From assembly GCA_021154885.1 (NCBI GenBank), contig JAJKHS010000132.1, positions 1 to 64,000 of the forward strand: 64,000 bases of DNA. Direction: 5' to 3'. The translations under genes were made by a program, and so were the position numbers. Positions 1,796 to 56,754 of this stretch are shown here, one piece after another. The notes beneath the pieces are model-generated. The model was not told the origin of the DNA. It did not search any database and saw nothing but the letters and a program-made list of their open reading frames with translations. The DNA is from Thermoanaerobaculum sp. (GTDB lineage Bacteria; Acidobacteriota; Thermoanaerobaculia; Multivoradales; UBA5704). The number at the start of each line of letters is the position of its first letter. The first letter of the stretch is position 1.

Positions 1796-1878
1796 AGCTG
1801 CTCAGAAGGAGTCAACGACAGCTGGATCAAATCTCTGCTGAAGCCGGCTCTGCCTCCTGCCCTCTGCATGCCGCAGCC

Positions 1879-30995: not shown

Positions 30996-32298
<1,303 letters not shown>

Positions 32299-39579: not shown

Positions 39580-40199
39580 TTCCAGGCCTCCCCGCCGTCG
39601 CCCGAGGCGTACCAGTCCGCGCGGATCGTGGCATCCTTGCAGTCGCGGCATTTGTGGACCTCGATGCGCGCCGTCGCCGCGGGCTCCACCCGGACCTCCA
39701 GAAAGTTCTGCGTCTGGTCGCCGAAGCGGAAGGCTCCCGGGTCGATCACCGAGCCGTCGTGCTTGAAGATGGCGATGTGCGGCAGGCCCGCGCCCGCCGG
39801 ATCGACGGAGAGCCCCTCCACCGAGTCCTTGTCCGTGACGTCGGGGGGAGCCAGGAAGGTGATTCCGGTGGGCAGCTCCAGGGTGCCGATGATCGACTCG
39901 CCCGCGGACAACCGGCCATCGGAGTTGGCGTCCGAGAAGGCCTCCACCCGGCCGGGCTGGCCGCCGGCCGGCAGCACGACGTGGACGACCGCCTGGGCCG
40001 AGAACCTGACGGCATCCAGCCGCGCCTGCCGCATGAGGGTCGCCGTCTCCTGCGCAATCCCCCGCAGCTTGGCCTGGCGCATCGCGGTGAACAGCGACGG
40101 CATCCCCAGCAGCATGAGGATCATCAGGAGCGCCAGCACCACGAGCATCTCGATCAGGGTGAAGCCGCGGCGGCCGCGGCCCGTCTCTGGGATTTTCAT
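39570..40199 (-). CDS. fimT: FimT/GspH-type minor pseudopilin with EF-hand-like loop
   Basis: 209 aa. Prepilin signal RGRRGFTLIEMLVVLALLMI; the following MRQAKLRGIAQETATLMRQA is typical for GspH/FimT. An embedded DANSDGRLSAGE (near residue 100) matches the 12-residue EF-hand calcium loop at positions 1, 3, 5 and 12. Two Cys pairs occur near the end (KCRDCKD). The ATG at 40199 has no Shine-Dalgarno and lies about 5 nt from the start predicted for the sigma-54 promoter at 40215-40230, so the message may be nearly leaderless. Confidence 0.85.
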   Translation of the reverse strand: MKIPETGRGRRGFTLIEMLVVLALLMILMLLGMPSLFTAMRQAKLRGIAQETATLMRQARLDAVRFSAQAVVHVVLPAGGQPGRVEAFSDANSDGRLSAGESIIGTLELPTGITFLAPPDVTDKDSVEGLSVDPAGAGLPHIAIFKHDGSVIDPGAFRFGDQTQNFLEVRVEPAATARIEVHKCRDCKDATIRADWYASGDGGEAWKWN

Positions 40200-40214
40200 C
40201 GCGGCCCGGGCTAG

Positions 40215-40230
40215 AGCAAGCGCAGTGCCA
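40215..40230 (-). promoter_or_regulatory. Sigma-54 promoter of the fimT-pilVWX-pilY1 operon
   Basis: Minus strand TGGCACTGCGCTTGCT: the -24 GG and -12 GC are separated by exactly 10 nt. It matches TGGCAC-N5-TTGCT fully. It lies in the gap between the kinase stop and fimT. A start point near 40204 is predicted. Confidence 0.75.
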
Positions 40231-40313
40231 TGCCCCACAGGCCTCAGGAGAGCAGAGGTATCTACTGATTCTTCAGTGACTTGCGTGAATTTCCTGGCCG
40301 TCGCGGCCGGCGC

Positions 40314-42053
40314 TCAGGGAGCAGGCGCTTCGCTACCCATCGTAACGATCGTGTCGCGCGGGAAGGAGAGGAGGGCCAGCGTGCCGCCCCCCGGCCGGTC
40401 CTCCAGACGGAGGCGGCCGCCGTGGAGCACCACGATGCGGTGCGCCAGGGCGAGCCCGAGCCCCACGCCGCCCGGGCGGCCGGTGGCGAAGGGGTGGAAC
40501 AGGCGCTCCCGGATCGCCGCCGGCAGCCCGGGTCCACGGTCGGCGACGGCCACCTCAACCCCCTCGGGCTGGAGGGCGACGGCGACCTCCACCGGCCCCG
40601 CCCGTCCCACCTCCCGCTCGGCCTGCGCCGCGTTGTGCAGCAGGTTGCGCACCGCCCGCTCGAGGAGCTGCGGGTCGCCCCGCAGCACGGGGTCGCCGGC
40701 CGGGTCGCCGCGCACCTGCACCTCGACGCCGGCGAGGGCCGGGTCGGCGGCGGCGCGCAGGAGGAGACGGGTGAGCGAGAGCTCGGCGGTGCGGGCGGTG
40801 CCCGGCCGCGCAAAGGAGAGGAAGTCCTCCAGCACCCGTTCGAGGTGGTCGGCCTCGCGCCGGATCTCCGACAGGAAGTCGGCGATCGAGTCCTCGTCCG
40901 GCCGCCGCTCGATGAGAGTGAGGTAGCCGCGCAGGGTCGCCAGGCTGTTGCGCAGCTCGTGCGCCACGCCGCCCGCCATCTCCCCCAGCCGCGCCAGGCT
41001 CTCGGCGAGGCGCCCCTCCCCCTGCCGCCGCTGCACCTCGGTGAGGTCGGCGAAGAGGACCAGATGCCCCCGCACCTCGCCGTCGTCGCGGCGCAGGGGG
41101 TGGACGGTGAGGCCGACGGTGAGGGTCTCCCTGCCGTGGCGCACGCTGTGCTCCTGGCGCTGGGGCGAACTCCCCGCCGCCACGGCCGCCGCCAGCACCT
41201 CGAGCAGCTCGGGCTGGCCCGCCAGCACGCGGGCGAGCGGCAGGCCGGGCGCGGGCAGCTCGGCGTCCAGCAGCGCGGCGCCCACGGCGTTCAGCGCCAG
41301 CACGCGCCCGTCGCGGTCGAGGAGCAGCAGACCGCTCTGCAGGCTGGCCGACAGCGTCCGCTCGAGGGCCGCGATGTCGTCCTCGGTGTCTTCGGCAGCG
41401 GCTCCCCGGTCCGCGCTCAGGGCGGCGAGGGCGCGCTCGAAGGTGGCGAGGATGAGCTCCACCTCGTCACCCTCCGGCTCCGGCGCCCCCACCTGGCGGG
41501 CGCGGGCGAGGAGGGTCTCCCAAGGCGCCAGGAGGTGGCGCAGGAAGAAGAGGATGAGGAGCACCAGGGCGGCATTGATCGCGAGCACCGCGACCGAGAG
41601 CACCGAGAGCGCCCGCCGCTGGGCCGCGAGCACCGCCGCCGGCAGGTCCACCCGCACGTAGCGCCGCGCGCCGCTCCCCCCCAGCGGCGCGAAGCCGGCC
41701 ACCGAGTCCGGCAGGCTTTCGTCCGGCCCGGCGCCGAAGGGCGCCGCGCCGTGCCCCGCCGGCAGCTCGCCGGCGTCGACGAGGGCGACGGCGCTCGCGC
41801 CGGGCGCCAGGTCGCGCAGCGCGCTCGGGGCCGGCAGCTCGCCACCCGGGGCGGCGACCCGCCCGGCCACCGACCGGGCCAGCCGCACAGCCTCCTCCTG
41901 GCGCTCGCCGGCGAGCAGGGAGATGGCGTTGCGGTAGGAGAGGAGGGTGAAGGTCGAGAGGACGACGAGCAACAGCAGGGCGACGGGCAGCAGGATCAGG
42001 ACCTCGCGGCGCAGGCCCAGGCGCCACCGGCCGGTCTCCGCGCCCGCCGTCAT
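40314..42053 (-). CDS. pilS: PilS-like membrane sensor histidine kinase
   Basis: 579 aa. Two transmembrane helices (about 17-38 and 145-168) flank an extracytoplasmic region. A helical linker and PAS domain follow (~220-330, GLLLLDRDGRVLALNAVGAA), then HisKA with the phospho-His in GGVAHELRNSLATLRGYLTL and HATPase_c with the N box RNLLHNAAQAE, G1 VADRGPGLP and G2 GVGLGLALAHRI. It should phosphorylate an NtrC-type regulator, probably the one at 30988-32298. The ATG overlaps the pilD stop (ATGA). The symbol rests on context; true PilS has more N-terminal helices. Confidence 0.85.
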   Translation of the reverse strand: MTAGAETGRWRLGLRREVLILLPVALLLLVVLSTFTLLSYRNAISLLAGERQEEAVRLARSVAGRVAAPGGELPAPSALRDLAPGASAVALVDAGELPAGHGAAPFGAGPDESLPDSVAGFAPLGGSGARRYVRVDLPAAVLAAQRRALSVLSVAVLAINAALVLLILFFLRHLLAPWETLLARARQVGAPEPEGDEVELILATFERALAALSADRGAAAEDTEDDIAALERTLSASLQSGLLLLDRDGRVLALNAVGAALLDAELPAPGLPLARVLAGQPELLEVLAAAVAAGSSPQRQEHSVRHGRETLTVGLTVHPLRRDDGEVRGHLVLFADLTEVQRRQGEGRLAESLARLGEMAGGVAHELRNSLATLRGYLTLIERRPDEDSIADFLSEIRREADHLERVLEDFLSFARPGTARTAELSLTRLLLRAAADPALAGVEVQVRGDPAGDPVLRGDPQLLERAVRNLLHNAAQAEREVGRAGPVEVAVALQPEGVEVAVADRGPGLPAAIRERLFHPFATGRPGGVGLGLALAHRIVVLHGGRLRLEDRPGGGTLALLSFPRDTIVTMGSEAPAP

Positions 42054-42847
42054 AGCAGCCGCGCGTACGCCGCGACGATCCGCTCGCCGGCGAACAGGGC
42101 GATCAGCCCGCCCATTGCGAGGAAGGTGCCGAAGGGGAGCTTCGACTTGAGGTCGCCGCCGCGCCAGGCCATCAGCGCCAGCCCCACCACCGCTCCCGAG
42201 AGAGCGCCGAAGAAGAGCGACACCAGCACCCCCTGCCAGCCCAGGAAGGCGCCGATGGCGGCCAGCATCTTGACGTCGCCGAGCCCCATCCCCTCCTCGT
42301 GACGGAGGAGATACCAGCCCGCCCAGACGGCGAGCAGGATGCCGGCGCCCACCGCCGCCCCCAGGGCGCCGCCGGCCAGCGCCCGCCAGGGGCCGGGCCC
42401 CAGGCGCGCCCAGGAGAGGAGCGGCTGGAGCAGGATGCCCAGCGCGATCCCCGGCCAGGTCAGGACGTCGGGGAGGATCATGTGGTCGAGGTCGATCAGC
42501 GCCAGCACCACCATCAGGGCGCAGAAGAGGGCGCCGGCCACCGCCTCCCAGGAGACGCCGAAGCGCAGGAAGGAGGCCAGGAAGAGCAGCCCGGTCGCCC
42601 CCTCGACCAGCGGGTAGCGCCGGGAGATGCGGGCGCCGCAGGCATGGCAGCGGCCTCGCAGCAGCAGGAAGGAGACCACGGGGACGTTGTCCCGCGCCCG
42701 GATGGCGGCCCCGCACGCGGGGCAGCGCGACCGCGGCAGCACGGTGGAGATCCCCAGCGGCAGGCGGTAGATCACCACGTTGAGATAGCTGCCGACGATC
42801 AGTCCGAGGACTGTGGCGTAGAGGCCGAGGAGGAGCTCGAGGGACAC
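42050..42847 (-). CDS. pilD: Prepilin peptidase / N-methyltransferase
   Basis: 265 aa. It cleaves prepilin leaders and methylates the new N-terminal residue. The N-terminal loop has two CxxC pairs (CPACG, CHACG) and NVVIYRLP. Catalytic Asp residues are in ALIDLDHMILPD and GMGLGDVKMLAAIG. About eight membrane helices. The start is GTG at 42847, 12 nt after the fourth YfhO-type gene. Its substrates are the prepilins encoded around it. Confidence 0.95.
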   Translation of the reverse strand: MSLELLLGLYATVLGLIVGSYLNVVIYRLPLGISTVLPRSRCPACGAAIRARDNVPVVSFLLLRGRCHACGARISRRYPLVEGATGLLFLASFLRFGVSWEAVAGALFCALMVVLALIDLDHMILPDVLTWPGIALGILLQPLLSWARLGPGPWRALAGGALGAAVGAGILLAVWAGWYLLRHEEGMGLGDVKMLAAIGAFLGWQGVLVSLFFGALSGAVVGLALMAWRGGDLKSKLPFGTFLAMGGLIALFAGERIVAAYARLL

Positions 42848-42859
42848 GGTGCGGGGATT

Positions 42860-45247
42860 CTACGTCAACGTCGTCATCGCCACCGGACGCTTCGTCCGCC
42901 GGAGCAGCGCCGCCCCGGCGGCGAGGGCGGCCAGGCTGAGGGCGGCGCCGGCGGGCACCCAGGGGTCGCGGTACTGGAGGTCGAGCCGGTGCTCGCCCGG
43001 TGGCAGCTCGACGCCGAGCTGACAGGCGGCCGTGGGGTGGATGGGGACGGGCGAGCCGTCCACCCGGGCCCGCCAGCCGGCGTCGAACGTCGTGGCGGCG
43101 ACCAGGAACGCCCCGTCGTCGGCGCGGTAGTGGAGCCGCGTCCGCCCGCCGTCGTCCTCCACCTCCAGCGACACCGGCCGGCGGGAGTAGGCGACGGTCC
43201 GCGCCGGCCCCACGCAATGCTCGCCGCGGGCCACCTGCCAGCCGCCGGCCCGGGCGGCGGCGAGGGCCGCCGCATGGCTGGGGTGGAAGGTCACCCGCGG
43301 CACGAAACGAAAGCGGGGGAGGACATAGGAGTTCGCCACCTTGACCAGGGCCGCGGCCCCGGCGTCGGGCGCGGCCGGCGGCTGGTCCGCGGCCGTCCGG
43401 CGCAGGAGGAGCGTGCCGACGTTCCAGACGCCGAGATAGCGGTACGCCATCTGCGGCCGGGCCCGCTCGCCGTCGAGGATCCCGGCCGCCTTGCGGGCCC
43501 AGCCGGTGAGCGTCAGGTCGTAGTCGGTCTGGAAGGCGTAGGGGATGTGCCAGAGCAGGCCGGAGTAGGGCTCCAGCCGCGACAGGTAGATGCCGGTGAA
43601 GGCCGTCCGGGAGCCCTCCCCGAGCGGCAGCCGCTCCCCGGCCCCGGAGGGCGCCGGCTGCACCCAGACGCGGTCCCGGGCCGGCAGCAGCGCGGCCGCG
43701 AGGGACGGCGGCAGGCGATAGACCGCGGCCGGGACGGTGCGCGGCAGGCCGTGCCCGTAATGCCAGAGGTCGCCGGCCAGCAGGGCGATGGCGAGGGGCG
43801 AGAGGAGGCGCCTGGAGGGCCGCGACCAGCGGCAGAGGGCGAGCAGGGCGGCGACCGCCGCCGCCGTGGCCACCGCCGCCCACCCCTCGTGCCGCAGGTA
43901 CGCCGCGGCGGCCAGCCGGCGCTCCGGGCTGAGGTCGGGGGCGCCGTGGGCCGCCACGAAGCCGGCGGCGGCCCGGGGCTCGAAGCACAGCACGAGCGTG
44001 AGGGTCAGGGCGGTGGCCAGCACGACCAGGGCGACGGCCAGGGGGAAGTCGGCGGCCTCCGGCCGGCCCGCCTCGCGGTCGGCGAGCAGCCGCTGCCAGC
44101 CCAGGACGCCGGCCACCCCAAGGGAAAGGACGGCCAGGAGGGCGAAACGCTCGGGAAAACGGAGGAGACCCAGCAACGGGATCGTCCGGCGGAGCCCCTC
44201 GTACGCCGGGTCGTGGCGGCCCAGGGCGAGGAGGAGGCCGGCGGCGAAGGTGAGCGCCCAGGCGACCCGCCGGGGAATGCCGCCCCGCAGCAGGGCCGAC
44301 ACCCCCAGCACGGCCAGCAGCAGCCCCGGGTAGAGCGACTCGAGATAGGGGTAGTCGAGGTCGTCGATCCCCCAGCCGAAGAAGAGGCCGTCAGAGCCGC
44401 GCGCGGGATCGCCGAAGAAGCGCGGGAAGACCATCTCGGCCAGGCGCTCCGGGGGCAGCGACCAGACCGTGACGTAGCGGGCCGGGAGGTCCCGCCGCGG
44501 CGAGTCGGCGAGCCGACCGAGGGTGGGAACGAGCTGCACGGCGGCCAGCGCCAGCGCCGCCGCGAAGGGCACCAGCGCCCGCAGCACCCGCGCCGGGTCC
44601 ACCGGGCGGCGGCAGCCCGCCGAGGCGGCGAGCGCCAGCAGGGCCAGGCCGCTCATCATCGCCGTCGACGGCTCGCCGTTGAGGAGAGCGAGCCCCAGGG
44701 CTCCCCCCGCCAGCAGCGCCGGCCGGCGCCACGGCTCTCCGCGCGGCGCCCGCAGCGCCTCGTCCCCCCAGGCCAGCACCCACGGCAGCCAGGAGATCCC
44801 CCACTCCAGGGTGTAGGCGCTGAGCAGCGAGAGGTAGGCGCCGCAGCCGGCGAAGCCCACGCCCGCCAGCGCCGCGGCGTCCGAGCCGCCCCCGAGCCGC
44901 CGCACCAGACGCCACGCTCCCGCGAAGGCCAGAGCGCCGTGCAGCACCGCCAGCAGGCCCAGCGCAAACGAGGGCGGCACCACCAGCACCAGCCAGCTCG
45001 GGGGATAGAAAGATCCATAGCTGGGGTTTGAGAGGATGGGCTGGCCGCCATGCAGCCAGGGGTTCCAGGCCGGGAGACCGAAGGCCGCGAGATCGCGGAA
45101 GGCGGTGCGCAGGGGGAGATGGAACAGGGCGATGTCACGGTTGGCGAGCGCTCGCGCCGGCGAGAGCAGCGGCGCGAAGAGGCAGGCGAGCCAGGTCGCC
45201 GCGAGCAGACCGGCTGCAGCCGTCGCAGCCAGGCGGCGGCCCATCAT
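42860..45247 (-). CDS. YfhO-type GT-C membrane glycosyltransferase, paralog 4
   Basis: 795 aa with about 12 membrane helices, then an extracytoplasmic C-terminal domain and a final helix. It shares with its three neighbours the blocks LANRDIALFHLPLR (acidic residue after the first helix), LSNPSYGSFYPPSWL, LLNGEPSTAMMSGL, FPRFFGDPARG, YLESLYPGLLLAVLG and ATTFDAGWRARVDG. YfhO in Bacillus adds sugars to wall polymers from lipid-linked donors. The ATGATG start overlaps the upstream stop by 4 nt. It is last in the tandem and leads into pilD. Confidence 0.85.
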   Translation of the reverse strand: MMGRRLAATAAAGLLAATWLACLFAPLLSPARALANRDIALFHLPLRTAFRDLAAFGLPAWNPWLHGGQPILSNPSYGSFYPPSWLVLVVPPSFALGLLAVLHGALAFAGAWRLVRRLGGGSDAAALAGVGFAGCGAYLSLLSAYTLEWGISWLPWVLAWGDEALRAPRGEPWRRPALLAGGALGLALLNGEPSTAMMSGLALLALAASAGCRRPVDPARVLRALVPFAAALALAAVQLVPTLGRLADSPRRDLPARYVTVWSLPPERLAEMVFPRFFGDPARGSDGLFFGWGIDDLDYPYLESLYPGLLLAVLGVSALLRGGIPRRVAWALTFAAGLLLALGRHDPAYEGLRRTIPLLGLLRFPERFALLAVLSLGVAGVLGWQRLLADREAGRPEAADFPLAVALVVLATALTLTLVLCFEPRAAAGFVAAHGAPDLSPERRLAAAAYLRHEGWAAVATAAAVAALLALCRWSRPSRRLLSPLAIALLAGDLWHYGHGLPRTVPAAVYRLPPSLAAALLPARDRVWVQPAPSGAGERLPLGEGSRTAFTGIYLSRLEPYSGLLWHIPYAFQTDYDLTLTGWARKAAGILDGERARPQMAYRYLGVWNVGTLLLRRTAADQPPAAPDAGAAALVKVANSYVLPRFRFVPRVTFHPSHAAALAAARAGGWQVARGEHCVGPARTVAYSRRPVSLEVEDDGGRTRLHYRADDGAFLVAATTFDAGWRARVDGSPVPIHPTAACQLGVELPPGEHRLDLQYRDPWVPAGAALSLAALAAGAALLRRTKRPVAMTTLT

Positions 45248-47580
45248 GGCGCCGCCCCTGCCACCCCGGGTCGCCGGAAGATCAGCGCTCCCACCAGGAG
45301 AGCGGCCAGGCTGACCGCGGCGCCGACGGGGACGAAGGAGTCCCAGTACTCGAGGACCAGCCGGTGCTCGCCGGCGGGGAGCTCCACCCCGAGCTGGCAG
45401 GCGGCAGTGGGCTCGACCGGGACCGGCGCGCCGTCCACCCGGGCGCGCCACCCCTCATCGAAGGTCGTGGCGGCCACGAAGAAGGCCCCCTCCGCCGTCC
45501 GGTAATGGAGCCGGACCCGTCCCCCTTCATCCGCCGACTCCAGCAGGCGCGGCGGCCGGGTGTAGATCAGGGTCCGGGGCGGCAGGCCCGGCCGGACGCC
45601 CTGCTCCTCGCGGCCGACCGCCCACTCCCCGGCCCGGGCGGCGGCGACCGCCGCAGCGTGGGTGGGATGGAAGGTCACCCGGGGCACGAACCGGAAGCGG
45701 GGGAGCACGTGGACGTTCTCCAGCCGGCGCAGCCCGAGGAGCGCGGGCTCCGCACCTGCCGGCGGCTGGTCCGGGCTTCGCCTGGCCGTCAGGACGGTGC
45801 GCACGTTCCACGCCCCGAGATAGCGGAAGCTGCGGGACGGCTCGGTCCACTCCTGCCGCAGGATCTCGTCCGACGCCTGCGCCCAGCCGGTGAGCATGAG
45901 GTCGAAGTCGAGGTCGAAGGCGTACGGGATGCGCCAGAGCAGGCCGCCGTAGGGCGCCAGCCGGGCGATGACGGTGCGGGTCATCTCGGGCTGCGTCGAC
46001 CGGCCGCCCGGCGCCGGGTCGAGCCCCTCCTGGGGGGGGGCGAAGACGCGGTCCCGAGCCGGCAGGAGCGAAGCGGCCAGGGGGGGTGGGACCTGGTAGA
46101 CGGCGGCCGGCACCGTCCTGACCTGGCCGTGGCCGTAGTGCCAGAGGTCGGTAGCCAGCAGCAGCACGGCCAGCAGCGAGAGCAGTCGCCGTCCCGGCCG
46201 GCGCCACCGGCAGAGGCCGAGGAGGACGGCGACGGCCGCGGCGGTGGCCACGGCGGCCCAGCTCTCGCCCCGCAGGTACGCCAGGGCCGCGGCCGGGCGC
46301 GCGGGGTCCGGAGCCCAGAGGAGGCGCGCCGCCAGGAGCGCGGCGCCGGCGAGCACCGCCAGCGACAGGGCCAGGGGGAGGTTCGCGGCCTGCGGCCGGC
46401 CGGCCTGGCGCTCGTCGAGCAACCATTGCCAGCCGAGGACCCCGGCCAGGACGAGCGCCAGGACCGCCAGGATCACGAACTTCTCCGGATAGCGCTGGAT
46501 GGCCAGCAGCGGGACGGCCCGCCGCACCGCCGCGTACAGCGGGTTGTGGCGGCCGAGGGCCAGGAAACAGCCGGCGGCGAAGGCCAGGACCCAGGCCGCC
46601 CGCCGGGGGATGCGGCCACGGATCAGGGCCGACGCTCCCAGCACCGCCAGCAGCAGGCCCGGGTAGAGCGACTCCACGTAGGGGTAGCCGGGGTCGTTGA
46701 GCGCCGCGCCGAAGAAGAGCCCCTCGCCGCCGCGGGTGGGGTCGCCGTAGAACCGCGGGAAGACGACCTCCGCCAGGCGCTGGGGCGCCAGCGACCAGAG
46801 CGTGGCGTGCCGGGCGGACAGCGCCGTGCGGGGCGACTCCGCCAGCCGGCCCAGGGTGGGCAGGAGCTGCACGGCCGCGAGCGCCACCCCGAAGGCGAAG
46901 GGCACCAGCACCCGCAGGGCAATGACCGCGGAGCGCGGACGCCGCCCCGCCGCCGAAGCGGCCAGGGCCAGCAGCGCCAGGCCGCTCATGACCACTGTCG
47001 AGGGCTCGCCGTTGAGCAGTTGCAGGCTCAAGGTCCCCCCGGCGAGCAGGGCCGGACGCCGCCACCGCTCCTCCCGCAGGGCCTCGTCCCCCCAGGCGAG
47101 GAGCCACGGCAGCCAGGCGAGGCTCAGGAGCAAGGTGTAGGCGTTGAGCAGCGAGAGGTACGCGCCGCAGCCGGAGTAGCCGACTCCCGCCAGGGCCGCC
47201 GCGCCACGCCCGCAGCCCAGCCGGCGCGCCAGCCGCCAGGCGCCGGCGAAGGCCAGGGCCGCGTGCAGCACCGCCAGCAGGCTCAAGGCATACCAGGGGG
47301 GCACGGCGAGAGCCAGCCAGCTCGGGGGGTAGAACGCGGCATAGCTGGGATTCGACAGGATCGGCTGGCCGCCGTGCAGCCAGGGGTTCCACCGCGGCAG
47401 GCCGAAAGCGGCGAGCTCCCGGAAAGCGGAGCGCAGGGGGAGGTGGAAGAGCCCGATGTCGCGGTTGGCCAGCGCCCGCGACGGCGAGAGCGCGGGAGCG
47501 AACAGTCCAAGGACCCATCCCGCCCCCAGCAGCGCCGGCGGGATCGCCCGTGCGCAGCGGTCCTCGACCCAGGGCTTCAC
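45244..47580 (-). CDS. YfhO-type GT-C membrane glycosyltransferase, paralog 3
   Basis: 778 aa from GTG at 47580 (GTGA overlap with the upstream stop); an ATG at 47616 would add 12 residues and overlap more. It has the shared blocks LANRDIGLFHLPLR, LSNPSYAAFYPPSWL, LLNGEPSTVVMSGL, FPRFYGDPTRG, YVESLYPGLLLAVLG and ATTFDEGWRARVDG. Divergence from its neighbours is greatest in the variable part (about residues 500-640), the region likely to define acceptor or donor specificity. Confidence 0.85.
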   Translation of the reverse strand: MKPWVEDRCARAIPPALLGAGWVLGLFAPALSPSRALANRDIGLFHLPLRSAFRELAAFGLPRWNPWLHGGQPILSNPSYAAFYPPSWLALAVPPWYALSLLAVLHAALAFAGAWRLARRLGCGRGAAALAGVGYSGCGAYLSLLNAYTLLLSLAWLPWLLAWGDEALREERWRRPALLAGGTLSLQLLNGEPSTVVMSGLALLALAASAAGRRPRSAVIALRVLVPFAFGVALAAVQLLPTLGRLAESPRTALSARHATLWSLAPQRLAEVVFPRFYGDPTRGGEGLFFGAALNDPGYPYVESLYPGLLLAVLGASALIRGRIPRRAAWVLAFAAGCFLALGRHNPLYAAVRRAVPLLAIQRYPEKFVILAVLALVLAGVLGWQWLLDERQAGRPQAANLPLALSLAVLAGAALLAARLLWAPDPARPAAALAYLRGESWAAVATAAAVAVLLGLCRWRRPGRRLLSLLAVLLLATDLWHYGHGQVRTVPAAVYQVPPPLAASLLPARDRVFAPPQEGLDPAPGGRSTQPEMTRTVIARLAPYGGLLWRIPYAFDLDFDLMLTGWAQASDEILRQEWTEPSRSFRYLGAWNVRTVLTARRSPDQPPAGAEPALLGLRRLENVHVLPRFRFVPRVTFHPTHAAAVAAARAGEWAVGREEQGVRPGLPPRTLIYTRPPRLLESADEGGRVRLHYRTAEGAFFVAATTFDEGWRARVDGAPVPVEPTAACQLGVELPAGEHRLVLEYWDSFVPVGAAVSLAALLVGALIFRRPGVAGAAP

Positions 47581-49976
47581 GTTCCCCCAGCCTTTCCGGA
47601 ACGGGCGCCCGGCCACCGCAAGAGGACCGCTCCCGCCAGCAGCGCCGCCAGGCTGGCCGCGGCCCCCAGGGGCACCCAGGGATCCCGGTAGCGCAGCTCG
47701 AGCCGGTGCTCGCCCGGCGGCAGCTCCACTCCGACCTGGCAGGCGGCGGTGGGGCGGACGGCGACGGACGAGCCGTCCAGCCGGGCCCGCCAGCCCTCGT
47801 CGAAGGTCATGGCGGCGACGAAGAACGCCCCCTGCTCCGCCCGGAAGTCGACCTCGATCCGGCCGCCCTCGTCCGCGACGGCCAGCAGGCGCGGCGGCCG
47901 GCCGTAGGCCACCGTCTGCGCCGGGAGGCCCGGCCGCACGCTCTGCTCCTCGCGGGCCACGGCCCAGGCCGCGGCGCGGGCGGCGGCGAGGGCGGCGGCG
48001 TAGCTGGGATGGAAGGTCACCCGCGGCACGAAGCGGAAACGGGGGAGCACGAAGGGGTTCTGAACCCTGCGGAGCCCCTTCGCCTCAGGCCCCGGTGCCG
48101 CCGGCGGCTGGTCCGGGCTGGTCCTCGGCAGCAGGAGGGGGCCGACGTTCCAGGCGCCGAGGTAGCGATAGAACGCCTGGGGACGCCCCCCCTCGCTGCG
48201 CAGGACGTCCTCCGCCTGCCGCGCCCAGCGGGTGAGCAGGAGCTCGAAGTCGGCGTTGAACACATAGGGAATCTGCCAGAGCAGGCCGGCGTAGGGCGAC
48301 AGGCGGGCGACGTAGGTGCGGGAGACGCGCGTCCGCGGGTCGCCGGCGCGCGGCAGCACCACCAGCCGCGAGGCGGCCGCGGCCTCCTGCACGAAGATCC
48401 GGTCGCGCGGCGGCAGGAGCGAAGCCGCCAGAGGAGGGGGCGTCCGGTAGACCGCGGCCGGGACCGTCCGCAACAGCCCGTGCCCATAGTGCCAGAGGTC
48501 CGCGCCCAGCAGCAGCACGGCCAGCAGGGAGAGCAGCGGCCGGGACGGCCGGCGCCAGCGGCAGAGGGCGAGCAGGAGGGCCACCGCGCCGGCGGTGGCG
48601 ACCGCGGCCCAGCTCTCGGCCCGCAGAGACTCGAGGCCCGCCGTCTGCCCCGCCGCATCCAGGCCGGGCAGCCCCTGGGCAAGGATGAACCCGCGGGCCG
48701 CGCCGGGCGCCCCCTGCAGGACTGCCACCAGGGTCGCCGCGGTGCCCAGCACCACCAGGGCGAGGGCCAGGGGCAGGTCCGCAGCTTGCGGGCGGCCGGC
48801 CTGCCGCTCGTCGAGCAGCCGCTGCCAGCCGAGGACACCCGCGAAGACCAGGGCCAGGACCGCCAGCGCGGCGAACTTCTCGGGATAGCGCAGCACCGCC
48901 AGCACCGGCACGATCCGGCGAAGCCCTGAGTAGAGCGGATTGTGACGGCCGAGGGCGAGGAAGCAGCCGGCGGCGAAGGCGAGCCCCCAGGTCAGCCGCC
49001 GTGGAATCCCGCCGCGGACGAGGGCCGCGGCGCCGAGGACGGCCAGCAGCAGGCCGGGATAGAGCGACTCCAGATAGGGATATCCGAGGTCGTTGAGCTG
49101 CGAGCCGAAGAAGCGCCCCTCGAGCTCCCGCGCCGGATCGCCGAAGAAACGGGGGAGGACGACCTCCACCAGCCGCTCCGGGGGCATCGACCAGAGGGTA
49201 GCCTGGGCGGCGGGGAGGCGGGAGCGCGGCGAATCCGCGAGGCGGGCGAGAGTGGGCACGAGTTGCACCGCGGCCAGCGCCACCGCGAAGGCGAACGGCA
49301 CCAGGACCCGCAAGGCCGTGGCCGGGCGCCATGGATGCCGCGCCACCGCCGAGGCGGTCAGGGCCAGCAGCGCCAGGCCGCTGATCACCACCATCGCGGG
49401 CTCGCCATTGAGGAGCTGGAGTCCCAGGGCGCCGCCGGCCAGCAGGGCCGGGCGCCACCACCGCTCACCCTGCGGTGCCCGCAGGGCCGCGTCCGCCCAG
49501 GCGAGGGGCCAGGGGAACCAGGCCAGGCTCCACAGCAGGTTGAGGGCGCTCAGCAGGCTCAGCAGGACCCCGCAGCCGGAGAAGCCCACCGCCGCCAGCG
49601 CCGAAGCACCCCGGCCGCAGCCCAGCCGCCGCGCCAGGAACCAGGCACCGGCGAAGCCGAGGCCCACGTGCAGCACCGTCATCAGGGTGAGGGCGTAGTG
49701 GGGGGGCACGGCGAACACCAGCCAGCTCGGCGGGTAGAACGCGCCGTAGCTGGGGTTGGACAGGATCGGCTGGCCGCCGTTCAGCCAGGGGTTCCACACC
49801 GGGGGGCCGAAAGCCGCCAGGTCCCGGAAGGTGAGCCGCAGGGGGAGGTGAAAGAGCCCGACGTCCCGATTGCCCAGCGCCTGGTCCGGCGGCAGCAACG
49901 GCGCGAAGAGGGCGAGCAGCCAGCCGGTCCCCAGCACCACCGGTGAGGCGAGCCGCCGCCAGGCCGGAAATCTCAT
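47577..49976 (-). CDS. YfhO-type GT-C membrane glycosyltransferase, paralog 2
   Basis: 799 aa. The ATG at 49976 overlaps the previous stop by 4 nt (ATGA). Shared motifs: LGNRDVGLFHLPLR, LSNPSYGAFYPPSWL, LLNGEPAMVVISGL, LPRFFGDPARE, YLESLYPGLLLAVLG and AMTFDEGWRARLDG. The C-terminal extracytoplasmic part ends in a beta-rich domain and one helix (LGAAASLAALLAGAVLL). Confidence 0.85.
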   Translation of the reverse strand: MRFPAWRRLASPVVLGTGWLLALFAPLLPPDQALGNRDVGLFHLPLRLTFRDLAAFGPPVWNPWLNGGQPILSNPSYGAFYPPSWLVFAVPPHYALTLMTVLHVGLGFAGAWFLARRLGCGRGASALAAVGFSGCGVLLSLLSALNLLWSLAWFPWPLAWADAALRAPQGERWWRPALLAGGALGLQLLNGEPAMVVISGLALLALTASAVARHPWRPATALRVLVPFAFAVALAAVQLVPTLARLADSPRSRLPAAQATLWSMPPERLVEVVLPRFFGDPARELEGRFFGSQLNDLGYPYLESLYPGLLLAVLGAAALVRGGIPRRLTWGLAFAAGCFLALGRHNPLYSGLRRIVPVLAVLRYPEKFAALAVLALVFAGVLGWQRLLDERQAGRPQAADLPLALALVVLGTAATLVAVLQGAPGAARGFILAQGLPGLDAAGQTAGLESLRAESWAAVATAGAVALLLALCRWRRPSRPLLSLLAVLLLGADLWHYGHGLLRTVPAAVYRTPPPLAASLLPPRDRIFVQEAAAASRLVVLPRAGDPRTRVSRTYVARLSPYAGLLWQIPYVFNADFELLLTRWARQAEDVLRSEGGRPQAFYRYLGAWNVGPLLLPRTSPDQPPAAPGPEAKGLRRVQNPFVLPRFRFVPRVTFHPSYAAALAAARAAAWAVAREEQSVRPGLPAQTVAYGRPPRLLAVADEGGRIEVDFRAEQGAFFVAAMTFDEGWRARLDGSSVAVRPTAACQVGVELPPGEHRLELRYRDPWVPLGAAASLAALLAGAVLLRWPGARSGKAGGT

Positions 49977-52375
49977 GACCGCGCTGGCCGCCGCGGCCAG
50001 CCGAGCGCCGCGACGGCGCCGGCCAGCGTGACGAGAGTGATGGCGGCCCCCGCGCTCACCAGGGGCTCCCGGTACTCGAGCCGCAGGCGGTGTTGGCCGG
50101 CCGGCAGGGCCACGCCGAGCTGGCAGGCGGCGGTGGGGTAGACCGGCAGGGGCGAGCCGCCGTCCAGCCGGGCCCGCCACCCCTCGTCGAAGGTCGTGGC
50201 GGCGACCAGGAAGGCCCCCTCCTCCGCGCGGTAGTCGATGCGGATTCGCCCCCCCTCGTCCAGCAGCGCCAGAACCTGCGGCGGCCGCGTGTAGACCAGG
50301 GTCCGCGCCGGCCCGCCCAGGCAGTGCTCGTCGCGCGCGACCTTCCAGGCCAGACCCCGGGCGGCGGCCAGGGCGGCGGCGTGGGTGGGATGGAAGCTCA
50401 CCCGCGGCACGAAGCGGAAGCGCGGCAGCACGAAGGGGTTCGGCACCCGCCGCAGCATCACGGCGCCCGGGTCCCGCCGGGTGGCCGGATCCCGCAGGGC
50501 CGCCTCCTGTTCCGGCAGCGACCGGCGGAGGAAGACGTCGCCCACGTTCCACACCCCGAGGAAGCGGTAGCCCCTCCCCGGCCCGGACCACTCGGCGCGG
50601 AAGACGTCGTCCGCCCGCTGGCCCCACCGGGTCAACATCAGCTCGAAGTCGACCTCGAAGACGGAAGGGACGTTCCACAACAGGGCCGAGTAGGGCTGGA
50701 GGCTGGCGACCGCCTGGCGCTGAGTCAGGGTCCGCAGGTCGCCCTGGGACGGCGTGAGGTCCAGAGAATCTTTCGGAGCATGCTGCACGAAGACCCGATG
50801 GGTGGCCGGCAGCAACGCGGCGGCGAGCGGCGGCGGGGTGCTGTAGAGCGCGGCCGGGACGGACCGCAACAGCCCGTGCTCGGCGCGCCAGAGATCGGCG
50901 GCCAGGAGGAGGAGGGCCAGGCCCTGGAGCAGGCGCGCCGGAGAACGGCTCCAGCGGCAGAGCGCCAGCAGCGCGGCCACGGCCGCCACCGTGGCCACCG
51001 CAGCCCAGCTCTCGCCGCGCAGGTAGCCCAGAGCGGCGGCGCGTCCCGCCTCACCCAGATTGGGGTCGGTGTTGGCGGCGATGAACCGCAGGCCGGCGCC
51101 CGGCGCCAGCCGGAGCAGGAGCGCCAGGGCCGCGGCGGTCGCCAGCACCGCCAGCGCCAGGACGAAAGGGAGGCCGGCGGCCTGTGGACGCCCGGCCCGG
51201 CGCTCGTCGAGGAGCCGCTGCCAGCCCAGGGCTCCCGCCAGGGCCAGGACGAGCACGGCGAGCACGGCGAACTTCTCCGGGTAGCGCAGCACCGCCAGCG
51301 GCGGGAATGCCCGGCGCAGCCACGCATAGCCTGGATTGTGGCGCCCCAGGGCGAGGAACCAGCCGCCGGCACAGGCGAGGGCCCACGCGCCGCGCCGCGG
51401 GATGCCGCCGCGCAGCAGGGCGGGGATCCCCAGGACGGTCAGCAGCAGGCCGGGATAGAGCGACTCGACGTAGGGATAGTGGCCGTCGTTGACCGTCCAG
51501 CCCAGGGAGAGCCCCTCCACACCCCGCGTCACGTCGCCGAAGAAACGGGGGAAGACGACCTCGATCAGCCGCGCCGGCGACAGCGACCAGTCGGCGGCCG
51601 CGGCGAGGCTGAGGCCGCGGCGCGACGACTCGGCGAGCCGGCCGAGGGTGGGCAGGAGCTGCACCGCGGCGAGCGCCGCCGCCACGAGGAGGGGTACCGC
51701 GACCCGGACCGCGGCCTGTCCCCCGCTGCCGCCGCGCCGGACGGCCGTGGCAGCGGCCAGCGCCAGCAGTCCCATGCCAATCATCATCGCCGTGGCCGGC
51801 TCGCCGTTGAGCAGCGCGAGCCCCAGGGCCCCCGCGGACAGCAGCCCCGGCCGCCACCACCGCTCCCCCTGAGAAGCCGTCAGCGCCTCGTCCCCCCAGG
51901 CCAGCGCCCAGGGGAGCCAGGCGATGCCCCAATAGAGAGTGAGGGCGCTCAGGCAGGAGACATAGACGCCGCACCCCGCAAACCCGAGCCCCGCGAGCAC
52001 CGCCGTGCCCCGCCCGCAGCCCAGGCGGCGCGCCAGGAACGCGGCGCCGGCGAACGCGATGGCCGCGTGCAGCACCGCCAGCAGGCTCAGGGCATAGGCG
52101 GGCGGCACCGCCAGGACGAGCCAGCTCGGAGGATAGAAGGCCGCGTAGCTCGGGTTCGACAGCACGGGAGCGCCGCCGTGCACCCAGGGGTTCCACGCCG
52201 GGAGCCCGAAGGCCGCCAGCTCACGGAAAGCTGTCCGCAGGGGGAGATGGAAAGTCGGGACGTCCCGGTTCGCCAGCGCCCGCCGCGGCGAGAGCACGGG
52301 CGCGAAGAAGCTCAGGAGCCAGGCCGACGCAAGGAGAGCTGGCAGGATCGTGACGGTCCGGCGGCGCATTCGCAA
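49973..52375 (-). CDS. YfhO-type GT-C membrane glycosyltransferase, paralog 1
   Basis: 800 aa from TTG at 52375, or 798 aa from ATG at 52369; neither has a clear Shine-Dalgarno. Motifs: LANRDVPTFHLPLR, LSNPSYAAFYPPSWL, LLNGEPATAMMIGM, FPRFFGDVTRG, YVESLYPGLLLTVLG and ATTFDEGWRARLDG. It is first of the four tandem paralogs and only 55 nt after pilin 1, so it is probably reached by read-through from the pilin's sigma-54 promoter. Confidence 0.83.
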   Translation of the reverse strand: MRMRRRTVTILPALLASAWLLSFFAPVLSPRRALANRDVPTFHLPLRTAFRELAAFGLPAWNPWVHGGAPVLSNPSYAAFYPPSWLVLAVPPAYALSLLAVLHAAIAFAGAAFLARRLGCGRGTAVLAGLGFAGCGVYVSCLSALTLYWGIAWLPWALAWGDEALTASQGERWWRPGLLSAGALGLALLNGEPATAMMIGMGLLALAAATAVRRGGSGGQAAVRVAVPLLVAAALAAVQLLPTLGRLAESSRRGLSLAAAADWSLSPARLIEVVFPRFFGDVTRGVEGLSLGWTVNDGHYPYVESLYPGLLLTVLGIPALLRGGIPRRGAWALACAGGWFLALGRHNPGYAWLRRAFPPLAVLRYPEKFAVLAVLVLALAGALGWQRLLDERRAGRPQAAGLPFVLALAVLATAAALALLLRLAPGAGLRFIAANTDPNLGEAGRAAALGYLRGESWAAVATVAAVAALLALCRWSRSPARLLQGLALLLLAADLWRAEHGLLRSVPAALYSTPPPLAAALLPATHRVFVQHAPKDSLDLTPSQGDLRTLTQRQAVASLQPYSALLWNVPSVFEVDFELMLTRWGQRADDVFRAEWSGPGRGYRFLGVWNVGDVFLRRSLPEQEAALRDPATRRDPGAVMLRRVPNPFVLPRFRFVPRVSFHPTHAAALAAARGLAWKVARDEHCLGGPARTLVYTRPPQVLALLDEGGRIRIDYRAEEGAFLVAATTFDEGWRARLDGGSPLPVYPTAACQLGVALPAGQHRLRLEYREPLVSAGAAITLVTLAGAVAALGWPRRPARS

Positions 52376-52430: not shown

Positions 52431-52946
52431 CTACTTCTGCGGCCACCGTACGAAGAAGCCGTCCGCCCAGACGATGTCCTGATCGTAGTCCGTGGGCTCG
52501 AACCCGGCCACCGTGTAGCTGCCGGTGATGTCGCTGTTGTCCCGCCCGCCGCTGCCGATGACCATCAGGTGCTGCGACTGGACGTTCACAGGGTCGAGGA
52601 AGTACTGGTAGGGGTTCTTCCAACCGTCCCGGTCCACGACCCGCTCGATGTACGCCGGCACCAGGAGCGTCTGGAGGTCCGTCAGCGTCATCGCCTTGTA
52701 ATCGCTGATGTTGATGTTCGTCGCCGTCGCACCGGCCGCCGCCGCCCCCACCTGGTCGGACAACCAGGAGAACATCGCCGTGCCGGTGATCCGCATGTCC
52801 GCCAACGTCCGCTTCTGCTTCGCCTTCTGCATGGCGTCCAGCAGGTTCGGGATCAGGATGGCGGCCAGAATGCCGATGATCGCAATGACGATCAGCAGCT
52901 CGATGAGCGTAAAGCCCGTCTGTTTCCCTGCGAGTCTACGCTTCAT
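52431..52946 (-). CDS. Type IV major-pilin-like protein 1 (GspG-like)
   Basis: 171 aa. Leader MKRRLAGKQTG is cleaved before FTLIELLIVIAIIGILAAIL, the classical IVa prepilin signal with Glu+5. The helix continues PNLLDAMQKAKQKRTLADMR. The head carries a GspG-like SDQVGAAAAGATATN and ends TDYDQDIVWADGFFVRWPQK, nearly the same ending as pilin 2. Start chosen at 52946 (GGGGGAGACC upstream). Driven by an excellent sigma-54 site. Confidence 0.9.
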   Translation of the reverse strand: MKRRLAGKQTGFTLIELLIVIAIIGILAAILIPNLLDAMQKAKQKRTLADMRITGTAMFSWLSDQVGAAAAGATATNINISDYKAMTLTDLQTLLVPAYIERVVDRDGWKNPYQYFLDPVNVQSQHLMVIGSGGRDNSDITGSYTVAGFEPTDYDQDIVWADGFFVRWPQK

Positions 52947-53096: not shown

Positions 53097-54473
53097 TCAC
53101 TGCGCTGCAGAGACATAGAAAGATAGGATTCGGCGCATTCGATCAACCCCGCGGTCGAGCTCCGGCAGCGAGATCCGCTCGTTCGGGCCATGGATCCCCT
53201 GCGTGTCCTCGGGGCCGAGCCGAAAGGGTGAAAGGCCGTAGGCGGCGATGCCCCGCTCGCGGAAGAAGCGGGAATCGGTGAAGCCGGCGATGAACGTCGG
53301 CACCACCGGAGCCTCGGGCCGCAGGGCCCGCTCCAGCGCGCCGTAGAGGCGGCCGGAGACCGGCGACGGCGGCGTGGGCGGTGAGGTCACCAGCACCTTG
53401 ACGTCGAAGCCCGGGCCCAGCAGGCGCTCGCCGTTCTTCAGGAAGGCGTTCGCATCCGTGTCGGGCAGCAGGCGGACGTCGATCCGGGCCGAGGCGGCGG
53501 CGGGGATGACGTTGATCCGGTCCCCGCCGCGCAGGACGGTCACCTGCACGGTGTCGAGAAACAGGTTCGCCATCCCCGGCATCAGGAACTCCTTCGGGCC
53601 GTTCTCGGCGATGACGGCGTCAACATTGGAGAAGATGCGGCGCCAATACTTGTTCTGGAGCGGCGCCATGGCCCGGCAGTAGTCGCGGACGGGCGGGCTG
53701 ACCCGGAACCTGGGGGGCGCGCCGAGCAGGCGGGCCAGCCCCTGGACGAGCTGGTGGTTGGCGCTGTCGGGGTTCAGGCCCGCGCCGTGGCCGCCGCGGC
53801 CGGAGGTGGAGACCTCGAGCCAGAGCGGGCGCTTCTGGGATACCTCGATCCCCCACCAGAGGAGCTTGCCACCCGCGCCCGTCTGGCTCCTGCCACCCTC
53901 GCCGACCACCGCCTCGACCCCCTGGAAGAGCTCGGGGTGCTGGGCGAGCAGCCAGGCCGTGCCGCGCAGGCCGCCGTTCTCCTCGTCGGCCACGGCGAGA
54001 AAGATCACGTCGCGGGCCAGAGGAGCCCGGCGGCGCTTGAGGTCCACCAGAGCGGCGAGTTGGACGATCCCCAGACTCTTGTCGTCGAGGGCACCGCGCC
54101 CCCAGAGGTAGCCGTCCCGCACTCGGCCGGCGAACGGCTCGACGCTCCACCCCGGCCCGGGCGGCACGACGTCCATGTGGTGCAGGAGCAGGACGGCACG
54201 GCCGCCGCTCGCCGGGGAGGAGAGCCGGGCCCAGAGGTTGGCCCGGCCTTCCGGCGTCTTCACCATCCGCGAGGCAATGCCCTCCCGCTGGAGGATACCG
54301 GCGAGGAAGTCCGCCGCCCGCTGCTCGTTGCCCGGCGGATTCGAGGTGTCGAGACGCAGGTATTGCTGAAGCCAGCCCGCCGGTTCCGACAGCGTGGGTG
54401 CGGCGGCCGGGGCGGCCGGCGGCACCGCGGACAGGAGCAGGGCGAGCAGGATGGAGGATCGGAGGCAGCGCAT
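53097..54473 (-). CDS. Exported M20-family metallopeptidase 1
   Basis: 458 aa with signal peptide 1-~23. M20 metal and catalytic motifs: AVLLLHHMDVVPPG (His, Asp), LWGRGALDDKS (bridging Asp), LAVADEENGGLRG (catalytic Glu and metal ligand), and a C-terminal His in GIHGPNERI. It removes N-terminal or small peptide residues in the periplasm. A lid/dimerisation domain lies between. It sits between the two pilin genes, an arrangement repeated upstream by M20 peptidase 2 and pilin 2. Confidence 0.9.
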   Translation of the reverse strand: MRCLRSSILLALLLSAVPPAAPAAAPTLSEPAGWLQQYLRLDTSNPPGNEQRAADFLAGILQREGIASRMVKTPEGRANLWARLSSPASGGRAVLLLHHMDVVPPGPGWSVEPFAGRVRDGYLWGRGALDDKSLGIVQLAALVDLKRRRAPLARDVIFLAVADEENGGLRGTAWLLAQHPELFQGVEAVVGEGGRSQTGAGGKLLWWGIEVSQKRPLWLEVSTSGRGGHGAGLNPDSANHQLVQGLARLLGAPPRFRVSPPVRDYCRAMAPLQNKYWRRIFSNVDAVIAENGPKEFLMPGMANLFLDTVQVTVLRGGDRINVIPAAASARIDVRLLPDTDANAFLKNGERLLGPGFDVKVLVTSPPTPPSPVSGRLYGALERALRPEAPVVPTFIAGFTDSRFFRERGIAAYGLSPFRLGPEDTQGIHGPNERISLPELDRGVDRMRRILSFYVSAAQ

Positions 54474-54566: not shown

Positions 54567-55097
54567 TTAGTTGGTCTTCTGCGGCCAGCGCACGAAGAAG
54601 CCGTCGGCCCAGACGATGTCCTGGTCGTAGTCGGTGGGCTCGAAGCCGGCAACCGTGTACTTGTCGGTGGAAGAAGTCGTGTCGCGGCCGTCCGACCGGA
54701 CCGCCAGCACGTTCTTGGCGAGCACGTTGGGGCCGACGTAGTAGTCGTAGGCATGCTTCCAGCCGTCCTTGTCCGGCACCGACTGGAGGTACTGCGGCAC
54801 GAGGAAGGTGCTGATCTCGCCGGCCGTCTTCGCGGAGCCGTAGACGAGGGCGTCACCGAGGTTGATCTCGGTGGCGGTCTGGCCGGCGGCGGCCGCGCCG
54901 ACCTGGTCGGTCAGCCATGAGAACATCGCGGTGCCGGTGTTGCGCATGTCAGCCACCGTCCGCTTCTGCTTCGCCTTCTGGAGCGCGTCCAGGAAGTTCG
55001 GGATGAGCAGCGCCGCGATGATACCGATGATCGCCACCACGATCAGCAGCTCGATCAGCGTGAAGCCCTTTTGCCGGTTACGGATCTTCGTCAACAT
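54567..55097 (-). CDS. Type IV major-pilin-like protein 2 (GspG-like)
   Basis: 176 aa. Leader MLTKIRNRQKG then FTLIELLIVVAIIGIIAALL with Glu+5, and FLDALQKAKQKRTVADMRNT. The head has SWLTDQVGAAAAGQTATEIN and the same C-terminal TDYDQDIVWADGFFVRWPQK as pilin 1, plus TN. A strong Shine-Dalgarno (GGGAGGAGACCC) precedes the ATG at 55097. Its own sigma-54 promoter and strong terminator make it a monocistronic, probably highly expressed unit, so it is the better candidate for the main pilin. Confidence 0.9.
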   Translation of the reverse strand: MLTKIRNRQKGFTLIELLIVVAIIGIIAALLIPNFLDALQKAKQKRTVADMRNTGTAMFSWLTDQVGAAAAGQTATEINLGDALVYGSAKTAGEISTFLVPQYLQSVPDKDGWKHAYDYYVGPNVLAKNVLAVRSDGRDTTSSTDKYTVAGFEPTDYDQDIVWADGFFVRWPQKTN

Positions 55098-55264: not shown

Positions 55265-56704
55265 CTAAGTGTCAGACACCAGGCGGCGAACCGCCTTGCT
55301 GTAGAGGGCCACGCCGTCCACGAAGCCCGGCAGGGCGAAGCGCTCGTTCGCGGCGTCGACCTGCAGGGTATCCGAGTTCATGATGAGGAACGGAGAGAAG
55401 CCGTAGGTCGGCACCCCCAGGGCGCGGAAGAAGCGGGCGTCGGTGGCGGTCATGGGCAGGAAGTAGGGCCCCAGCGGGGCGTCGGGGTAGCTGTCGTGGA
55501 GGGTCGCCTGGAGACCCTGGAAGACCGGATTGTCCAGCGGGCTGCCGGCGCGGGCCGAGTCGGGCGCGTCGAGCCGGAGGGTGAGGCCGAAGGTCAGCCA
55601 GGGCGGTACGAGCCGGTCGCGGACCTTCGCCAGCTCCTCCCCTGGCAGGAGCTGGAACTTGATCAGCATCTCGTAGCCGCCGCCGGGCGCCGGCTCCACC
55701 TTGAACGGCACCGCCTCGTTGCGCAGCATGGACCGCAGATAGCCGGGCAGCTTGCGGTAGGCGGCGATGTCCGTCATCGCCTTCTCGGGGTGGGTGACGA
55801 GGTCCCGCAGGTCCGAGCGGTCGCGGGTCGGACCGTAGGCGGCGAGCGTCGCCGCGGCCTCCGGCGTCAGCCGCAGGTCGGTCTCCGTGGGCCCGATCTC
55901 CAGCAGCGTCTTGCGGAGCTGCTCGAGCGGCTCGCGGTCGCCGCTGCAGACGGTGAGGTCGGCATAGTGCCGCTGGGCGACCTCGGTGCCCCAGAACTTG
56001 ATCTCGTCGCGGGCCCGGGCCTCGACCACACCCCCTTCGGTGAGCACCGCCCAGAAGTTGCGGACCCTCTGCGGGTCGAGCTGGACGAGGCGGCGCACCC
56101 CGAGGCGGCTCCCCCGCTCCTCGCTGCTGGTGCCGAGGAAGAGGACGGAGTGCTTCAGGGGAACGCCGCTCTTCTTCAGGTCGATCATCGCCAGCATCTG
56201 GGCAATGGCGATGCTCTTCATGTCGAAGACGCCGCGGCCATAGATCCACGGGCCGTCGATCCGCGCCTCGAAGGGGGGCGAGAACCACTCCTTGGGATCG
56301 ACCGCCGAGACGTCGAGATGGTTGTGGAGCACCAGCGGATGGGGGTCCTTGCCGTCCAGCCAGGCGTAGAGGTTGGCCTTCTTCGGTCCCACCGGCTCGA
56401 TGCGGTAGGGGATTCCCGCGGCCGCGAACTGACGGGCCAGGAACCGGGCGCCCGCCATCTCGTCGCCGGTGGCCTCGCTGGTGTCGATCTGCACGTAGTG
56501 CTGAAGCAGCTCGACCTCGGGCATGTGGGCGTAATCGCGTTGCGCCCACTCCTCGTTGCGGTGCGCCTTCAGGGGGCGGTCGAGGAGCTTCACCATGCCG
56601 AAGGTGACGCCCCCCACCAGCACCAGGCTGGAGTACAGGGCGATCCGGGCAGCCCGCCGGCGTCGGGGTTCGAGGACGTTGAGAGTCATGGGACCCGCGA
56701 TCAT
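55265..56704 (-). CDS. Membrane-anchored M20-family metallopeptidase 2
   Basis: 479 aa. One N-terminal helix (about 20-40, IALYSSLVLVGGVTFGMVKL) anchors it. Catalytic motifs: LVLHNHLDVSAVDP, IYGRGVFDMKSIAIAQ and FLGTSSEERGSRLG (Glu-Glu pair). The C-terminal FGFSP-like GVPTYGFSPFLIMN matches the YGLSPFRLG of peptidase 1, so the two are paralogs, though distant. The gene lies upstream of pilin 2, mirroring peptidase 1 and pilin 1. Confidence 0.88.
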   Translation of the reverse strand: MIAGPMTLNVLEPRRRRAARIALYSSLVLVGGVTFGMVKLLDRPLKAHRNEEWAQRDYAHMPEVELLQHYVQIDTSEATGDEMAGARFLARQFAAAGIPYRIEPVGPKKANLYAWLDGKDPHPLVLHNHLDVSAVDPKEWFSPPFEARIDGPWIYGRGVFDMKSIAIAQMLAMIDLKKSGVPLKHSVLFLGTSSEERGSRLGVRRLVQLDPQRVRNFWAVLTEGGVVEARARDEIKFWGTEVAQRHYADLTVCSGDREPLEQLRKTLLEIGPTETDLRLTPEAAATLAAYGPTRDRSDLRDLVTHPEKAMTDIAAYRKLPGYLRSMLRNEAVPFKVEPAPGGGYEMLIKFQLLPGEELAKVRDRLVPPWLTFGLTLRLDAPDSARAGSPLDNPVFQGLQATLHDSYPDAPLGPYFLPMTATDARFFRALGVPTYGFSPFLIMNSDTLQVDAANERFALPGFVDGVALYSKAVRRLVSDT

Positions 56705-56754
56705 AAACCCGTCTTCGCCAGTTGTGTATGCTGCGCTGCATCCGTGAGCCCCCC

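Follow-up and report, generated by a model that had tools for sequence, protein, structure and literature searches.

Among membrane enzymes that transfer glycans, the O-oligosaccharyltransferases of the TfpO/PglL type are tied to pilins; they belong to a Wzy_C/WaaL-type family and transfer their glycan en bloc. GT-C enzymes are also known to be encoded with, and probably to act on, surface appendages. TfpW, a GT-C arabinosyltransferase of Pseudomonas group IV pilins, is described in PMC11841053 as the product of a pilin accessory gene that modifies the associated pilin. In the Pgf operon of Streptococcus mutans, the paralogous multi-TM proteins PgfM1 and PgfM2 are encoded beside the surface adhesins that they glycosylate; a pgfM2 deletion gives a product that is only partly modified, and from this the authors concluded that addition is sequential (PMC5856776). 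The YfhO family, by comparison, is known for the decoration of polymers. In the CsbB-GtcA-YfhO systems of Firmicutes, which act on lipoteichoic and wall teichoic acids (LTA and WTA), B. subtilis YfhO has ~13 TM helices, the last two being separated by a large extracytoplasmic loop, and is proposed to act outside the cell, moving sugar from C55-P onto LTA (PMC5836110).

The window analysed here, a stretch of 64,000 nucleotides from a Thermoanaerobaculum sp. genome, carries, on its minus strand, a head-to-tail run of four intact YfhO-type genes (Y1-Y4, 52369-42860) flanked by a prepilin gene and pilD (Table 1). The original prediction, made from the letters of the window, had described four tandem paralogs of ~780-800 amino acids with 4-nt overlaps at the three junctions, the first gene following a pilin gene and the last leading into pilD; the coordinates and intact frames bear this out in full, each junction being an overlap of exactly 4 nt (ATGA, GTGA and ATGA) and pilD beginning 12 nt downstream of Y4. 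For Y1, the in-frame ATG at 52369 is a likelier start than the TTG at 52375 because a matching methionine is present in the genus mates. The four proteins are 61-68% identical in pairwise comparison. An assembly error behind the four copies was considered and rejected: identity at third codon positions is only 58-64%, which makes the genes too different for strain variants, and the longest exact run that they share is no more than 29 nt. A plasmid origin was also discarded, as no match was obtained among 72,556 plasmids.

The predicted placement of the block inside a type IV pilus cluster was confirmed by profile matches to PilW, PilX_N, PilY1 and N_methyl in the locus, the minus-strand order being M20a, pilinA, M20b, pilinB, Y1-Y4, pilD, a PAS histidine kinase, fimT, pilV, pilW, pilX and pilY1. 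The host genome also has PilM and several PilT-family genes, so the pilus machinery is present.

Table 1. Features of the YfhO-type block and its surroundings in the window.
Feature	Coordinates	Strand	Description
562-aa membrane protein	56722..58410	+	weak match to LA_3751-type putative glycosyltransferase; divergent, conserved neighbour
DegT-type sugar aminotransferase	58407..59516	+	PseC/WecE-like; divergent, conserved neighbour
M20a	55265..56704	-	M20-family peptidase, N-terminal hydrophobic anchor
pilinA	54567..55097	-	second prepilin; 64% identical to pilinB
M20b	53097..54473	-	secreted M20-family peptidase; kept between the two pilins
pilinB	52431..52946	-	prepilin, GFTLIEL motif, GspG/PilA-like; N_methyl match
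Y1	49973..52369	-	predicted YfhO-type GT-C membrane glycosyltransferase, 798 aa from ATG; ORF (52375-49973) open to TTG 52375
Y2	47577..49976	-	predicted YfhO-type GT-C, 799 aa; 4-nt overlap between its start and the end of Y1; copy modelled by AlphaFold
Y3	45244..47580	-	predicted YfhO-type GT-C, 778 aa; GTG start; 4-nt overlap; sole copy above Pfam YfhO cut-off
Y4	42860..45247	-	predicted YfhO-type GT-C, 795 aa; 4-nt overlap with Y3
pilD	42050..42847	-	prepilin peptidase; A24_N_bact and Peptidase_A24 matches
Sensor kinase	40314..42053	-	PAS-HisKA-HATPase; PilS-like place; 4-nt overlap between its start and the end of pilD
Minor pilin, FimT/GspH-like	39570..40238	-	profile match
Minor pilin, PilV-like	39037..39651	-	N_methyl just below cut-off, and synteny
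PilW	37795..39021	-	profile match
PilX	37235..37798	-	profile match (PilX_N)
PilY1	33055..37206	-	1383 aa; profile match
NtrC/PilR-type response regulator	30928..32298	+	adjoins locus in several relatives
Group II intron RNA domains	1876..2634	-	RF00029 and RF02012

M20-family peptidases alternate with pilins throughout the order and also lie beside pilins in other families, a pairing that looks like a conserved partnership. Pilin-type globular domains were also seen in other settings. The host genome encodes two proteins (C131:24182-24652, L200:10177-10878; C73:18675-19187, L201:9673-10188) that match the window pilins in their globular domain, down to the C-terminal DQD..W.DG.FVRWPQK motif, with an ordinary secretion-signal-like N-terminus where the GFTLIEL helix of a prepilin would stand; these are apparently secreted, pilus-free pilin domains. 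In relatives, frames with two tandem pilin-type globular domains (G003:C83, G015:C246, G022:C523, G007:C21, G011:C13 and C51, G016:C65; L223, L229, L230) differ from a normal pilin subunit.

All four Y proteins are matched by the YfhO profile PF09586 over their C-terminal ~70 residues only; Y3 scores 29.0 bits against a curated cut-off of 28.5, the other three copies score 21-25 bits, and other YfhO genes of the host genome pass the cut-off. Given this partial coverage, with Y3 alone above the cut-off, the YfhO-family call is based on profile and fold together and not on Pfam alone. An AlphaFold model of Y2, built from 15 orthologs (pLDDT 80, pTM 0.82), has a helical membrane bundle to residue 501, a soluble domain of ~265 residues (503-765) and a last TM helix at 767-787, the TM count being approximate; this topology agrees with that of B. 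subtilis YfhO as described (PMC5836110). In a Foldseek search of the PDB, the top ten matches were all GT-C enzymes or complexes containing them (E-values 2.6e-7 to 5e-2), among them AftD, ArnT, AftA, ALG3, OST, DPY19, Pmt4 and Pmt1-Pmt2, with TM-scores that were low to moderate and so assign a fold class and not a substrate. GT-C enzymes have an acidic catalytic residue in the first extracytoplasmic loop; here the loop that follows TM1 contains D38, which 15/15 orthologs share without variation and which is also found in 71/72 wider relatives. Searches by sequence profile gave no credible relative of solved structure. With regard to the TfpO/PglL enzymes, which the window proteins resemble in that membrane glycan transfer is tied to pilins, the profile search of Y1-Y4 differed in giving no significant Wzy_C match (Y3 only, E = 0.27, far under the cut-off). 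Y1-Y4 are thus supported as predicted GT-C-type membrane glycosyltransferases, and the membrane glycosyltransferase identity first proposed for them agrees with the modelled fold, the PDB matches and the conservation of D38.

Exactly one ortholog, adjoining pilD, was found in each of 13 other genomes of the order (G001, G002, G003, G004, G009, G011, G012, G017, G019, G037, G045, G046 and G048), representing 7 genera and 5 families; G001 and G002 are genus mates of the window genome and G003 is a member of its family. The ortholog is downstream of a pilin or of M20b in 12 of the 13, the contig of G012 ending there, and the sensor kinase is also present in most of these genomes and the minor-pilin genes in several, before the contigs end. 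Against the profile, the pilD-adjacent orthologs score above 800 bits and every other gene listed from 149 genomes of the class scores at most 382. The block is therefore not one that sits away from pilus genes in most relatives, its orthologs being pilD-adjacent in 13/13. In G002 the single ortholog (C580; L066:16785-19130) is interrupted near residue 595 by two in-frame TAG codons, and is either a pseudogene or the product of an assembly error.

The linkage extends to further families, with G078 (family f12) having the order pilin-M20b-YfhO-pilD-kinase, the nearest relatives in family f10 being arranged as YfhO-M20-pilin in many genomes, and YfhO lying beside M20-pilin genes in G077 (f11). 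Arrays occur in f10 as triples in G062 and G063 (the G063 contig ends before a pilin) and as doubles in G059 and G075. In a tree of 72 proteins, the pilD-adjacent and f10-type groups come together in a single clade (SH-aLRT 97), outside which the host's remaining YfhO genes fall; G078 is on a long branch whose exact placement is unsure, and members of the clade without a pilin in the stretch examined are G072a, G073, G121, G144 and G146. As sister families keep YfhO beside M20-peptidase and pilin genes, with old arrays among them, the pilus link is old and class-wide. More distant YfhO genes also stand in tandem pairs or triples (host C131:31.6-36.2 kb and C144:243-246 kb; G024:C49; G007:C48), at sites remote from pilus machinery or past the DegT gene, and repeated tandem arrays are a habit of the YfhO family in these genomes.

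The position of the block could nevertheless be passive, an envelope enzyme unrelated to pili having come by chance to lie between pilin and pilD. In keeping with this, the M20-pilin-pilD locus is found without a YfhO gene there in many genomes of the order (e.g. G024, G018, G010, G007, G026, G031 and G013), several of which carry one to three more distantly related YfhO genes on the far side of the DegT/562-aa pair; as pilins and pilD are kept in these genomes without YfhO between them, the pilus can do without it. A chance arrangement is implausible, however, because the orthologs hold the same place in 13 genomes, and the adjacency, which spans five families of the order, recurs in G078 and persists in rearranged YfhO-M20-pilin form in f10 and f11. 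We judge a passive position very unlikely, and conserved linkage would seem largely to refute it.

A set of four enzymes is not a general feature of the system: the relatives of the order that have an ortholog are single-copy, and Y1-Y4 form one clade (support 99/98) with the two genus mates as its sister. AU tests rejected the grouping of each single Y with the gene of the genus mates (p 0.002-0.023). Set against the genes of other genomes, the paralogs thus have a single origin, with pilus linkage kept in the relatives, and on the tree the four copies are read as a lineage-specific tandem expansion of one gene. The f10 triples show copy-by-copy orthology between the congeners G062 and G063 and fall outside the window clade, so arrays arose more than once. 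The signal for monophyly is uneven along the protein, which leaves the age of the duplication uncertain: with segment 261-520 alone Y1 falls outside (90/90), and in the C-terminal third Y1-Y4 are more alike to each other than to the genus mate. These segment trees are suggestive of gene conversion, which may be blurring the date of duplication.

The paralogs had been said to differ around residues 500-640, and this is true of the sequences as such, with 36-52% identity among Y1-Y4 over residues 521-640 against 54-82% in most other segments compared. The divergence does not, however, mark specialised enzymes: the single-copy genes of G001 and G003 are 29-53% identical over residues 521-640, so this is a fast region of the whole family and its variability is no evidence for specialised copies. 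Faster evolution of the four copies, hinted at by branch lengths, was rejected, as relative-rate tests of the Y copies against the single-copy gene gave no significant difference (chi-square 0.01-2.99). These similarities in variability and rate, together with the single copy found in all order relatives having the ortholog, are what would be expected if the four copies were redundant, kept for dosage or by drift and doing the job of the single ancestor, whichever acceptor that job involved. We consider redundancy doubtful, given that all four genes are intact, with catalytic-loop residues conserved and a pairwise identity of 61-68% that indicates long constraint on each, and that, in the G062/G063 triples, each copy has stayed orthologous to its counterpart across deep branches, suggesting that the copies in those arrays have distinct roles.

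As to function, we lean slightly towards the block being a pilus-dedicated GT-C glycosylation module, derived from one ancestral YfhO gene by quadruplication and likely to modify pilins. The ancestral GT-C gene would have long belonged to the type IV pilus locus of this class before its duplication to four in the host lineage. The enzymes would lie in the inner membrane, with the D38 loop just after TM1 and the ~265-residue soluble domain facing the periplasm, and would transfer a sugar, supplied on a polyprenyl-phosphate carrier, to an acceptor at the outer face. The likeliest acceptor would be a pilin (pilinA or pilinB), before or during assembly, and four copies could serve several residues or several sugars, with one sugar per enzyme, as has been proposed for PgfM1/PgfM2. 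The sugar aminotransferase and the second putative glycosyltransferase, as conserved neighbours, were counted in favour of glycosylation.

A donor for such a reaction could be supplied by an ArnC/PgfS-like polyprenyl-phosphate sugar synthase (GT2) that is encoded in the host genome on C73, unlinked to the YfhO block. This synthase gene adjoins one of the secreted pilin-domain genes (L201:9673-11282), a neighbourhood kept with a 2.5-kb gap in G001 and absent from the other genomes looked at; as it is confined to the host and one genus mate, the link was not taken as strong evidence. No GtrA flippase (PF04138) was found in the host genome, which is 97% complete, with control genomes giving matches, so that if the polyprenyl route is used the donor must reach the outer face otherwise. 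When pilins from loci with YfhO were compared with those from loci lacking it, no Ser/Thr site tracked the presence of the gene.

The main rival holds that YfhO acts on a surface polysaccharide or LPS that is tied to the pilus through its export or function, the genes sharing the operon for co-regulation and the acceptor being a glycan. No teichoic acid is expected in a Gram-negative-type acidobacterium. Characterised YfhO proteins have teichoic acids (LTA and WTA) and not proteins as their targets, which counts against a pilin acceptor (PMC5836110, PMC8035078); the DegT aminotransferase and the 562-aa putative glycosyltransferase resemble envelope-glycan genes, and the more distant YfhO genes of the host lie away from pilus machinery. 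However, the genes found nearest to YfhO throughout the class are those for prepilin, M20 peptidase and PilD and not polymer-export genes, and the host's other YfhO genes lie outside the pilus-linked clade. Polysaccharide decoration is possible but on balance unlikely, and pilin modification remains the reading that we favour.

To say that nothing like this block is known would be too strong, given TfpW as a precedent for a GT-C enzyme on a pilin and PgfM1/PgfM2 for stepwise glycosylation of an adhesin. The window genes share with TfpW, as it is portrayed in PMC11841053, the encoding of a GT-C enzyme with a pilin, here as an adjacency in 13 genomes and in other families; TfpW is by that account a single gene, and is likened to the window genes by description. 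With PgfM1/PgfM2 the window proteins share their paralogous, multi-TM character and weak NCBIfam C-terminal matches (17-21 bits against cut-offs of 1400-1500), the differences being that the Pgf proteins are two and not four, act on wall adhesins and not pilins, and have dedicated PgfS and PgfE in the operon. The likeness to CsbB-GtcA-YfhO lies in the GT-C fold, the membrane bundle, the large extracytoplasmic loop before the last TM helix and the C-terminal PF09586 domain, whereas the window genes are linked to pilins and pilD and not to csbB, in a host genome where the flippase was not found. A search of the open-licence literature gave no report of pilin-linked YfhO genes or of YfhO with Acidobacteria; YfhO and pilin were named together in only three papers, pilin a single time in each.

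What looks new is therefore the pilin-linked YfhO gene with its lineage-specific quadruplication, in what looks like a little-described system for coating the pilus. A bolder proposal, which we think rather improbable as a whole, would be that pili in Acidobacteriota are glycosylated by a class of system not described before, with one to four YfhO-type GT-Cs assembling the glycan directly on the pilin from the periplasmic side, each adding a single sugar, and duplication setting glycan length or diversity. If pilins are indeed the acceptor, a new enzyme family would be added to pilin modification, and the related genomes would form a natural copy-number series (0, 1, 2, 3 and 4) bearing on whether added GT-C copies make a protein glycan longer or more diverse. 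Since pilin glycosylation by TfpO and TfpW in Pseudomonas leads to evasion of pilus-specific phages (PMC11841053), the expansion might be an adaptive response to phages or to surfaces in bacteria whose pili have been little studied.
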